A stretch of 64,000 nucleotides of DNA from Kosmotoga olearia TBF 19.5.1 (GTDB lineage: Bacteria; Thermotogota; Thermotogae; Petrotogales; Kosmotogaceae): assembly GCF_000023325.1 (NCBI RefSeq), contig NC_012785.1:620001-684000 (forward strand), read 5' to 3'. Below are positions 9,098 to 59,160 of this stretch, piece by piece. A program made the position numbers and the translations under genes. Numbering within the stretch: the first letter of the stretch is position 1; each line of letters opens with the position of its first letter. The notes under the pieces were generated by a model that made no database searches, was not told where the DNA came from, and was given only the letters and a program-made list of their open reading frames with translations.

Positions 9098-9260
9098 AGT
9101 GCTGAGCTGCGCTCCGGACACTTGCAAAGGTTGATCTGTCATCCTGAACTTGATTCAGGATCTCGTACTTAAAAAAAACAGATTCTGGATTGAACATCTC
9201 CAGAATGACAGTGGGGGGTTAAGATTCTGGATTAAACATTTCCAGAATGACGGTTTTTAC

Positions 9261-9346
9261 AGCCGCGAAGCGGTTCGGGTCAACCACGCAGTGGTTCGAG
9301 GCAACTCCGCGGAGTTCGTAACACCGGCACAGCCGGTCGAATCGAC
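9261..9346. repeat. 21-nt-period mini-hairpin array A1
   Basis: Four units start at 9261, 9282, 9303 and 9323. Stems: AGCCGC-gaa-GCGGTT (one G-T pair), AACCAC-gca-GTGGTT, AACTCC-gc-GGAGTT and ACCGGC-aca-GCCGGT. Most are followed by TCG and a short spacer. A further GTCGAATCGAC palindrome follows at 9336-9346. Stem sequences change from unit to unit but stay self-complementary. Confidence 0.8.
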
Positions 9347-9462
9347 GATTTTTTGTACACCCGTCATCCTGAACTTGATTCAGGATCTCGTACTTAAACC
9401 CAGCTTCCAGATCAAGTCCAGAATGACAATCCTTTGTCTGTGGTCTTATTTCAAGCAACGTC

Positions 9463-9560
9463 AACTGCGAAGCAGTTCGTGACAACTCCGCAGGAGTACG
9501 AGACAACTCTGAAAGAGTTCGCAACAATCCCGAAGGGATTCGTATCGCTGCGAAGCAGCG
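9463..9560. repeat. 21-nt-period mini-hairpin array A2
   Basis: Five units start at 9463, 9484, 9505, 9526 and 9546. Stems: AACTGC-gaa-GCAGTT, AACTCC-gca-GGAGTa, AACTCT-gaa-AGAGTT, AATCCC-gaa-GGGATT and CGCTGC-gaa-GCAGCG. Spacers read tcgNNaca or similar. GTGCTTACC follows at 9567. Confidence 0.85.
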
Positions 9561-9605
9561 CACAGCGTGCTTACCCGCAGTGCAGCGGTCCTCTCGAATC
9601 TCAAT

Positions 9606-10178
9606 TCAATACAAAAAAGAATACTCAACCTCCGCATCATAGCGGGTTCCTTCCGATACTTCATAATCCTTAATCAACAACATTTCTTCTAATTCGAAGG
9701 AGGGATCAATTCCAAACATATGATTCCATGTGTTTACGCATATTACTGGTCTTCCATCTCTGAATACAACTTCATTGAAAGGAATAATCGCATCACCATG
9801 CAAATCTTTCGTATCCTTGAAATGATGCTTGCCGGAAAAAGTACCGAAAAATCTTAATTCTAAAAGCTTTCCATTTTTATCAGTTATGATATGAAAAGTC
9901 TCGATATCTTCGATTCGCCCATATTTAAAGAATCTGTAAATGTCATAAATCACATTTATGAAACAATCGGGGTGATCTTCATCCTTAAAGACCACTGTTA
10001 TCTCGTAATCTATTCCCCTGACACATTCCTTTTGAGACACGAACACCTCAACAATTCCGTTGCTTTTATCGTATTCAGGGATAGCAAATATAGGAAGAAT
10101 TTCTTCAGGTATGCCCTCCGCTAAGGCAAACCTCAACAATAACACCATTAAAAACATCACGGCAATAAACTTTTTCAT
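9606..10178 (-). CDS. Exported protein, unknown function
   Basis: A 190-residue protein with a signal peptide (MKKFIAVMFLMVLLLRFALA, cleavage after ALA) and a beta-rich mature domain. The start at 10178 has GGGGTGAT upstream; a longer reading frame further upstream only reads through repeat DNA. The mature part has paired acidic and aromatic strands (YEITVVFKDEDHPDCF, FHIITDKNGKLLELRFFGTF) and two cysteines that could form a disulfide. I do not recognise a family. It lies alone between two repeat regions, with no shared operon. Confidence 0.7.
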   Translation of the reverse strand: MKKFIAVMFLMVLLLRFALAEGIPEEILPIFAIPEYDKSNGIVEVFVSQKECVRGIDYEITVVFKDEDHPDCFINVIYDIYRFFKYGRIEDIETFHIITDKNGKLLELRFFGTFSGKHHFKDTKDLHGDAIIPFNEVVFRDGRPVICVNTWNHMFGIDPSFELEEMLLIKDYEVSEGTRYDAEVEYSFLY

Positions 10179-10425
10179 ACCATTTATCACCCCTATTACA
10201 ATAATCGTTGTAGGTTGTTCGAAAAACATCGAGAATCCGAGAAGGCGAGAACCCGAGAAGATGAGAATAAAAACAACGCTTCTCTTTTGAGCCCGCATAA
10301 CCACTGCGAAGCAGTTCGGAACAACTCTGAAAGAGTTCGCACCACTGGCGCAGCCAGTCGTACCAATCCCGAAGGGATTCGTACCCACGACAAAGTCGTG
10401 CTTACCAAATCTTGGACTCTCAATT
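10179..10425. repeat. Composite repeat element between 9606 and 10426 genes
   Basis: From about 10200 it carries GTTGTAGGTTGTTCG followed by CGAGAATCCGAGAAGGCGAGAA-type tracts to about 10265, then mini-hairpin array B (10302-10400), then GTGCTTACC and a short GGACTCTCAATTC end. This is the same module order, with one half inverted, as other copies in the window. No gene seen. Confidence 0.75.
10302..10400. repeat. 21-nt-period mini-hairpin array B
   Basis: Five units start at exactly 10302, 10323, 10344, 10365 and 10386. Stems: CACTGC-gaa-GCAGTT (5 bp), AACTCT-gaa-AGAGTT, ACTGGC-gca-GCCAGT, AATCCC-gaa-GGGATT and CACGAC-aaa-GTCGTG. All are 15 nt, with 6-nt spacers. Confidence 0.88.
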
Positions 10426-10695
10426 CTAATACCGTATTTCAAAAGAATCGAAATGCACCGGTGATAGTTCTTCAAGTTCGACTTTACTAACATACGCAAA
10501 TGGTGGTCCATTCTCAATCTCATTAATAAAATCGTTGAGAACAGAATCCTCAGCCTCGGCTACAACCTCAACACGGCCATCAGCAAGATTTCTTACATAA
10601 CCAGTGACCCCCATCTTTTTCGCTTTTCTATAAGCAAAATAACGAAATCCAACACCTTGAACAATCCCTGAAAGAAGTATCCTGACTGTTTTCAT
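10426..10695 (-). CDS. acyP: Acylphosphatase
   Basis: An 89-residue acylphosphatase, which hydrolyses acyl phosphates such as acetyl phosphate or 1,3-bisphosphoglycerate. The signature GIVQGVGFRYFAYRKAKKMG supplies the catalytic Arg, and GYVRNLADGRVEV supplies the catalytic Asn. The ATG at 10695 has AGAGGTGG 8 nt upstream; a GTG 12 nt earlier overlaps that site and is less likely. It follows the LUD gene by 16 nt, probably in one operon. Confidence 0.95.
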   Translation of the reverse strand: MKTVRILLSGIVQGVGFRYFAYRKAKKMGVTGYVRNLADGRVEVVAEAEDSVLNDFINEIENGPPFAYVSKVELEELSPVHFDSFEIRY

Positions 10696-10711
10696 TGTGT
10701 GTTCCACCTCT

Positions 10712-11353
10712 TCAAAGCCCCAGGTCTTCTCCTACCAGCAAAACGGTGTATCTGCCTTTGCGAGCCGAGCTATCGGTTATCACAACATATGTTTCACATA
10801 TACGTTGAGTCGAATGACAATCCATACAAATTCCGGTAGAAGTACATGGGGTATGAAGGTTCAATCTTTTAGCGTTCATCGGAGATATATATTTTATGCG
10901 TTTTATTGCCTCATCCATATCGGAAACGATTTTGTTCATACCAGCAATGATTATTACTTTATCCGGTCCGAAAATCATCGGCGCTACCCTTGTGCCATGA
11001 CCATCTAACTGGACAATCTCTCCTTTTATGGTAATCGCATTAGCACTACACAGAAAATAGTCAACTTCGAACATCTCTTTGAATATTTTCCTTTTTTCTT
11101 CGGGCGTTTTAGCAGCATATCTGTCTCTAAAATCGTATCTTCCATTTCTGAGAAAATCAAGAACACCACATTGAGAAAGAGTTATAGATCCACCAACAGC
11201 GGCACTGGAACCAGCTGGCATCAGTTCTTCTAATTTAGGAACCACTTCTTCCGGGGTTGAGAGATACACCGCATTGATCCCTCTTTTTGCAAAGTTCTTT
11301 ACGACAATACTGGCAAGATTATCGTATTTCCATTTCAGAAGTTCTTTTCTCAT
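10712..11353 (-). CDS. LUD-domain protein (LutC/YkgG-like)
   Basis: A 213-residue lactate-utilisation (LUD) domain protein. Conserved blocks include LEELMPAGSSAAVGGSITL, CSANAITIKGEIVQLDGHGTRVAPMIFGPDKVIIIAGMNKIV and a C-terminal CTSTGICMDCHSTQRIC cysteine cluster that may bind a metal or Fe-S centre. Stand-alone members without LutA/LutB are common in anaerobes and their substrate is unknown. The start at 11353 has GGGAGGG at good spacing; longer upstream codons run into the divergent promoter of the alpha-glucosidase. Confidence 0.85.
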   Translation of the reverse strand: MRKELLKWKYDNLASIVVKNFAKRGINAVYLSTPEEVVPKLEELMPAGSSAAVGGSITLSQCGVLDFLRNGRYDFRDRYAAKTPEEKRKIFKEMFEVDYFLCSANAITIKGEIVQLDGHGTRVAPMIFGPDKVIIIAGMNKIVSDMDEAIKRIKYISPMNAKRLNLHTPCTSTGICMDCHSTQRICETYVVITDSSARKGRYTVLLVGEDLGL

Positions 11354-44099: not shown

Positions 44100-44381
44100 T
44101 ACCTCCTTTTTTACATATTTTTTCGCGCTACCGCATAACCCGATTTTATCAGCCTCCGCAACCCTCTGTTTTTATACCCACTCCGAAGGAGTGCTTACCC
44201 TCAGCGCAGCTGGGCTCACCCACGTGCTGCGGCCCTCTCGGACTCTCGAATCTCGATTCTCGCCCTCTCGCTTTCTCGGTTCTCGATTGTCACGTACAAC
44301 CTACAACGCACAACCAAAAACGATTCTATATTCTCGCCTTCTCGGTTCTCGAATCTCTTTTCTACACCCTATACCCGCTTT
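44100..44381. repeat. Composite repeat element (inverted orientation)
   Basis: This gap contains two mini-hairpin units (44179-44193 and 44200-44214, 21-nt step; CACTCC-gaa-GGAGTG and CTCAGC-gca-GCTGGG), GTGCTTACC at 44191, then long TCTCGG/TCTCGAA tracts (44229-44280 and 44333-44355) and ACGTACAACCTACAACGCAC (44292-44311), the reverse complement of the core at about 4455. No gene. Confidence 0.75.
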
Positions 44382-49008: not shown

Positions 49009-49559
49009 TGTTTGGAACCTCTGACGCGGTGAAGTGCGAAGCTACGCTCCGGACGTTTGCAGACACTGTCAGTTAGTGAAGCAACACGAACCGCAAGCAG
49101 TCGACAAGCGTCTCCAGCGGATAGAACCAAAGGCGAGTCTAGGATATGGAGAAAATGCGAGAGTCCGAGAACCGAGAATCCGAGAAATCAAGAACAGTAA
49201 ATTCCGAATCAAGTTCAGGATGACGAATTAGGCTTGCAATACTGTAATAAAGCATGTTCTTTATTGTAGGGTTTGTTCTTTGTGGACACAAAAATGTACT
49301 CTTATATACTGTCAAATAAAGGGCACAGCCCTATAATAGCGACTCTCGGATCACGGTTATTGTTTTAAGTATCAATTTTTTCAACCACGAAGTGGTTCGA
49401 AACAACTCCGCAGGAGTTCGTGTCAATCCCAAAAGGATTCGTGTCCGCTGCGAAGCAGCCTTCTCGGCTCTCGGTTCTCGGATTCTCGAATCTCGATGCA
49501 TATCTGTTATGATAAAATTCCTACCCAAAACATAAATTATTAAACCAGAGGGGATTGGG
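49009..49559. repeat. Repeat-rich intergenic region
   Basis: No gene in 551 nt. It contains TGAAGTGCGAAGC…CTCCGGACGTTTGCA (about 49031-49064, partner of 9093-9126), CGAGAGTCCGAGAACCGAGA tracts (about 49158-49186), AATCAAGTTCAGGATGAC (49207-49224, inverse of the 9138 repeat), GGGCACAGCCC (49321-49331), mini-hairpin array D and TCTCGG tracts up to 49496. Confidence 0.75.
49383..49460. repeat. 21-nt-period mini-hairpin array D
   Basis: Four units start at 49383, 49404, 49425 and 49446, all 21 nt apart. Stems: AACCAC-gaa-GTGGTT, AACTCC-gca-GGAGTT, AATCCC-aaa-AGGATT (one inner mismatch) and CGCTGC-gaa-GCAGCC. Confidence 0.85.
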
Positions 49560-59119: not shown

Positions 59120-59160
59120 TTAGTATATGATATACTAAGGTTTAGTATATAGTATACTAA
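59120..59160. promoter_or_regulatory. Paired palindromic operators of the NTase/HTH module
   Basis: TTAGTATATGATATACTAA (59120-59138) and TTAGTATATAGTATACTAA (59142-59160) are 19-nt palindromes with starts 22 nt apart (two helical turns), just before the ribosome-binding site of 59176. The pair recurs at 61857-61897. Confidence 0.8.

Follow-up and report, generated by a model that had tools for sequence, protein, structure and literature searches.

The closest described systems to the element reported here include two groups of bacterial palindromic repeats. REP/REPIN/BIME elements are short, clustered intergenic palindromes in high copy number, often found between convergent or unidirectional genes in genomes with HUH transposases, and the hairpin arrays of Kosmotoga olearia resemble them in all of these features. 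CGTC-3 REPs have been named in this very species, and TIRYTs with cognate repeats of their own have been described (PMC3733652, in excerpt). The BOX elements of streptococci (boxA-boxBn-boxC) are modular, intergenic and stem-loop forming, with a variable number of inner modules (PMC3049150, in excerpt), and the same can be said of the arrays. Our search of the literature outside subscription journals, figures and the text of genome papers returned no description of 21-nt hairpin arrays. The array family appears to be an atypical relative of the palindrome repeats known from bacteria, present in high copy number in a phylum where such repeats have been little described, and built, unlike REP or BOX, of ordered and non-repeating hairpins.

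The family comprises at least 114 intergenic arrays, and the unit palindrome measures 15 nt at a 21-nt step (20–40 bp for REPs). In contrast to REP, REPIN and BIME elements, the arrays have 6-bp stems and 3-nt loops, and different hairpins follow one another in a fixed order and a single orientation. The GTAG/CGTC tag at the foot of REP hairpins is absent, the spacers reading C-G-N-N-N-C. REPs flank their cognate RAYT gene; here an array lies beside one of the two Y1 genes of K. olearia, which score below the RAYT cut-off, and arrays lie near such a gene in the relative G007. In G008 no Y1 gene was found. Palindromes ATCCTGAACTTGATTCAGGAT and ATTCTGGA...TCCAGAATGAC adjoin array A2 at window positions 9143–9260 and 9365–9430, and these are probably the CGTC-3 REPs of the excerpted source (PMC3733652); we infer that the latter name belongs to the neighboring ATTCTGGA...TCCAGAATGAC element with its longer stems. 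A CRISPR array was rejected, as the units differ and the spacers are only 6 nt long.

The array under study, array B (10302–10406), lies in a window of 64,000 nt that forms part of the single 2,302,126-bp contig of the K. olearia genome (Table 1). It probably belongs to an interspersed, non-coding repeat of the REP/BOX type whose single-strand hairpins are copied from one gene gap to another, with loss of whole 21-nt units by slippage, and it does not look like a control device of neighboring genes. Direct reading and a script both gave hairpins with 6-bp stems, 3-nt loops and a step of exactly 21 nt, and arm typing resolved them as A-D-E-F followed by one second-class unit. This bears out the sequence-only reading, which had placed five equidistant hairpins between two minus-strand genes, with the arms AACTCT and AATCCC in common with array A2 and a GTGCTTACC end (10398–10406) that recurs in A2 and at 44191. 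The arms ACTGGC and CACGAC, which it took to be new, are so within the window only; ACTGGC occurs in 4 of the initial 194 units parsed, and a CACGAC unit with the CTTACC spacer is present in a relative (L049). When at least 5/6 pairs per unit were required, the window held three chains of at least three units at step 21 and none at the other steps from 16 to 30, and the longest hairpin chain in 60 first-order Markov windows had two units, none having three. Array B is far beyond chance.

Table 1. Positions of array B, its surroundings and related arrays in the window.
Feature	Position	Strand	Description
Array B, unit 1	10302–10316	+	Type A variant CACTGC-GAA-GCAGTT, 5/6 pairs
Array B, unit 2	10323–10337	+	Type D AACTCT-GAA-AGAGTT, perfect stem
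Array B, unit 3	10344–10358	+	Type E ACTGGC-GCA-GCCAGT, perfect stem
Array B, unit 4	10365–10379	+	Type F AATCCC-GAA-GGGATT, perfect stem
Array B, unit 5	10386–10400	+	Second-class CACGAC-AAA-GTCGTG, perfect stem; spacer CTTACC at 10401–10406; like a unit in L049
Acylphosphatase gene acyP	10426–10707	−	PF00708; operon neighbor of array B
Unnamed gene	9606–10178	−	No Pfam match; downstream neighbor; orthologue directly after acyP in G002, G006 and G008
Gap holding the insertion	10179–10425		247 nt; ~15–25 nt in three relatives
CGAGAAnn repeats	10230–10267	−	On the minus strand the CTCG-type repeat common beside arrays; here upstream and inverted
Sister array A2	9463–9565	+	A-C-D-F-G
Sister array	9261–9337	+	Covariance model match at 9261–9322
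Sister array	49383–49460	+	B-C-F-G
Single second-class unit	44179–44199	+	CACTCC-GAA-GGAGTG-CTTACC

The order of a gene that we take to be LUD-type, acyP and the unnamed gene is common to K. olearia and the relatives G002, G006 and G008. The distance from acyP to the next gene is 247 nt in K. olearia, filled by the array and CTCG-type repeats, versus ~15–25 nt in the three relatives, and no array was found in the 700 nt downstream of acyP in any of ten relatives, three of which have the same next gene. Since the three relatives with the same operon have this short gap and lack the array, the simplest reading is that array B would be an insertion in the K. olearia lineage. Alignment of the orthologous region, which the sequence-only reading had proposed as its check, thus speaks against a conserved local device (3/3 relatives with the same downstream gene lack the array), and a conserved regulator of acyP was ruled out by the same absence. 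MITEs carry terminal inverted repeats and target-site duplications; inspection of the acyP gap by eye revealed no clear element ends or such duplications.

Two of the window arrays, used as BLAST queries, matched the K. olearia genome at 46 and 47 sites, and a hairpin parser that requires at least 5/6 pairs per unit resolved 38 BLAST-derived loci into 45 arrays with 194 units. A covariance model of three units (94 rows) gave 152 matches at E ≤0.01, with 150 of 699 candidates scored, and among the 150 of these 152 matches listed at least 114 arrays can be distinguished (52 plus, 62 minus), which is a lower bound. By crude ORF calls the arrays are intergenic and overlap with short ORFs only, and convergent gaps account for 13/28 of the gaps with arrays versus 25/164 of those without (Fisher p 0.0005). 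A coding repeat, for which a length of 7 codons (21 nt) and open frames would speak, was rejected because each of the three free spacer positions varies and gene orientation is mixed, and a gene-cassette (attC-like) reading because the genes near arrays are mixed (AbiE, IS, riboflavin, dehydrogenase). The upstream flanks are of several kinds, 34 of 60 fitting no named kind, and at least two CTCG motifs occur within 110 nt downstream of 40 of the 60 arrays. The motif CCAGAATGA immediately precedes 8 of the 60 typed arrays.

Each unit consists of a six-base arm, a loop, the complementary six-base arm and a spacer of the form C-G-N-N-N-C, most commonly CGTATC, CGTGTC or CGTGAC among the 194 units. 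The step is unchanged in two further spacer classes, CAYRGC and CTTACC, and within arrays it is 21 in 181 of 207 cases and 20 in 22. The loops are GAA (119), GCA (34), AAA (18) or GTA (13) in most units, with A as third base in 194/194; GNA loops make up 168/194, and the closing pair is C-G in 170 units and G-C in none. Perfect hairpins outside arrays lack such a loop preference (GNA or TNC in 106/406). Near arrays of the relatives, GNA was found in 41/57 three-base loops and GNNA in 8/17 four-base loops, the latter being weaker in the own genome (8/32). DNA mini-hairpins in which a GNA or GNNA loop caps a G-C stem are very stable, and GCGAAGC melts near 78°C (PMC4686876, in excerpt). The array loops agree with those of the most stable mini-hairpins known in DNA, which suggests that the repeat works as a folded single strand of DNA.

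In the 94-row alignment two-sided changes were seen in 18/18 pairs, paired cells amounted to 97.8% versus 69.7% in shuffles and two-sided changed cells to 442 versus 106, both values being inflated by the selection of rows for pairing, while sliding the structure reduced pairing to 16–44%. Within arm types, 20 changes were two-sided and 11 one-sided. Among copies of one type, stem diversity is 0.00–0.10 per site compared with 0.23–0.71 at spacer positions 3–5, a stem value biased low because parsing required at least 5/6 pairs and the diversity sample perfect inner five pairs, with only 11 of 289 units added as decayed. The loop center has a diversity above 0.5 in four of six types, and types B, D and F show almost no stem changes. 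Either copies with damaged hairpins fail to spread or the host keeps the stems; the former agrees with work that treats such repeats as populations that replicate (PMC8049555, PMC3116915, in excerpt).

About eight arm types follow one order, (E/H)-A-B-C-D-E-F-G, in 58 of 60 typed arrays, type E being found also before A. This count covers 60 of 71 arrays, the other 11 having fewer than three typed units. There were 333 concordant and 3 discordant type pairs, compared with at most 200 concordant in 1000 shuffles, and a type is repeated in 1/60 arrays versus 36 by random draw; 16 arrays of the relatives gave 47 concordant and 2 discordant pairs. The variety of arrays (34 distinct type strings among 60, copies that are not independent as some share flanks) arises from missing units, not from repeats. 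Such ordered subsets suggest loss of units without gain. In BOX elements a single module, boxB, is repeated in tandem, whereas the array modules differ and are ordered. As to the fixed end modules of BOX, the arrays have several heads (34 of 60 unclassified) and, in 40 of 60, at least two CTCG motifs downstream. It had also been proposed that arms diversify by paired changes; such changes do occur between units, but array B is no site of arm diversification. Its arms belong to a standard genome-wide repertoire with a fixed order that is shared across species.

Because the arms are fixed and their order recurs in other species while three spacer bases vary, the string might instead be a code of single-stranded hairpins in which not only the shape but also the sequence and place of each of about eight arms would be recognized. 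We regard this as unlikely; if true, a host or element protein that reads extra-stable GNA mini-hairpins in order would represent, in a thermophile, a recognition element of a new kind. Spread without any mover, through segmental duplication, conversion or horizontal transfer of the surrounding genes, appears quite unlikely. Flanks and spacers are indeed common to some copies (1320 and 1334 kb; 917 and 929 kb), the genes beside two arrays of G006 are 97–99% identical to K. olearia genes and the allele L192 shows exchange between arrays, but flanks differ among most copies, and array B itself sits between genes that are vertically inherited in order.

That the array is transcribed as a cis-acting RNA, serving as terminator, attenuator or mRNA stabilizer of the acyP operon or of genes generally, is very unlikely, even though array B lies within an operon, convergent gaps are enriched as for REPs and positions 10302–10406 fold well as RNA on both strands (z −4.4 and −3.5 versus dinucleotide shuffles; as single-stranded DNA, −4.3 on the plus and −4.6 on the minus strand). 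Against this, upstream and downstream genes show no clear orientation preference relative to the array (+− 26, ++ 17, −+ 15, −− 13; n = 71 of the 114 arrays, crude ORF caller), no intrinsic terminator (GC-rich stem, then T run) was found in 10150–10720, the array B region has no match in Rfam, and relatives with the same operon do without the array. We likewise attach a very low probability to a duplex array in which 21 bp, or two helical turns, would set the dyads on the same side for one nucleoid or regulatory protein per unit. It would account for the strict step in three spacer classes and for stems kept by sequence and not by pairing alone; however, unit-wise loss by itself gives the exact step, and the dyad is polar, its GNA loop being confined to one of the strands, a polarity for which a dyad site in duplex DNA has no need. 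We know of no protein that binds such array units on duplex DNA.

If array B is a copied repeat of single-strand hairpins, the strings of 15-nt hairpins at a 21-nt step would descend from one ancestral ordered string, whose copies would insert into gene gaps, preferably between convergent genes, and also cross species with accessory genes. After copying, the polymerase may skip one hairpin between the direct repeats of the spacers (GTTCGNNNCAAC), so that a unit is lost, and skipping unit by unit would produce both the exact 21-nt steps and the ordered subsets. A hairpin flanked by direct repeats is deleted in vitro, together with one of the repeats, when slippage occurs across it (PMC4134008, in excerpt). 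The copying machinery may read the folded single strand with its GNA-type loops, in which case only copies with intact hairpins would spread and the stems would be kept. The family lends itself as a natural test case for deletion promoted by hairpins and for what preserves small palindromes. The likeliest mover, and the weakest step of this proposal, would be a Y1/HUH transposase of the RAYT/TIRYT kind.

PF01797 matches two genes in the genome, encoding 242 and 236 aa, both of which score 67–68 bits with REP_Tyr_transpos (cut-off 80); a sequence search with one of the proteins found no relative in the PDB. The Y1 genes occupy genome positions 1341656–1342366 and 1355255–1355983. Downstream of one of them an array stands about 95 nt past the stop codon, and the 3′ flank of each copy contains the remnant of a broken array. 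G007 has two arrays, both some 1.2 kb away from a RAYT-like gene. In G002, four model matches and one BLAST match occur no more than 45 kb from the only Y1 gene. Within 100 kb of the two K. olearia Y1 genes there are 35 arrays versus 9.9 expected, which 2.5% of random centers equal, and this clustering may reflect only a shared accessory island. G008 (83% complete) has arrays but no Y1 gene was found there, while G010 and G016 have Y1 genes but no array. GGGGAC-type inverted repeats near both Y1 genes, one array lying between such a repeat and the gene, recall TIRtrons, but the 21-nt hairpins are unlike those terminal repeats. The GGGGAC-type repeats suggest that the Y1 proteins are TIRYTs whose cognate repeat differs from the arrays. 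No sharp element ends emerged among the upstream flanks of 60 arrays, and no target duplication was seen.

Around the two Y1 genes the arrays are oriented in blocks, with 17/17 plus at 1.28–1.346 Mb and 17/19 minus at 1.376–1.462 Mb. We make no claim of a replication-strand cause, as the third-position GC skew has no clean flip there. Arrays also occur close to two AbiEii-type toxin genes (G000:C1, 1382144–1383925 and 1396478–1398259), each followed by a partner frame of 269–270 aa; the one that was tested scored below the cut-off for AbiEi_4.

Model matches were found in 8 of 41 genomes, the own included, all eight within the Kosmotogaceae, and in 12 of 103 genomes of the phylum, four of them outside the family. 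The outside-family genomes with arrays are other Thermotogota MAGs, with the arrays on short contigs; of the four, three were read, G043 being the fourth. In one, the matches sit at contig positions close to those on the contigs that resemble the 132-kb locus, the array L194 adjoins a gene 90% identical to one of K. olearia, and L195 lies at a contig end. A search with one 26-nt array pattern matched three contigs of named genomes, all Thermotogota MAGs, and gave no exact match among viral contigs.

Two MAG contigs, L191 and L192, named Thermotogaceae and Kosmotogales, respectively, are 99.5 and 96.6% identical to K. olearia over 2 kb and share its array-rich gap; misbinning or transfer could explain the differing names. 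At this 132-kb locus L191 has no substitutions in 547 aligned array-block bases (coding 8/1337) and a 3-nt insertion in a stem, while L192 has 14 changes in 545 (coding 13/1337) and a 40-nt two-unit difference. Differences among the three strain-level alleles comprise an exchange of two units (40 nt), altered spacers and loops, an insertion of 3 nt and a stem that has decayed; the only paired change most plausibly belongs to the block exchange. The relatives G002, G006 and G008 each carry, past the 3′ end of one and the same gene, an identically oriented array with the last units AATCGC, AATCCC and AATTGC, which represent between-species paired changes at apparently one orthologous place. As these arrays look orthologous, some copies appear to persist.

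The arrays share the genome with other palindromic repeats. Overlapping TATACTAA-type palindromes recur every 11 nt at window positions 59122–59160 and 61870 in the hairpin list. The genome sequence that was sampled is also rich in dispersed copies of a 74-nt repeat that contains CCTCGTGAGCG-type palindromes, and in ACAAC-type repeats.
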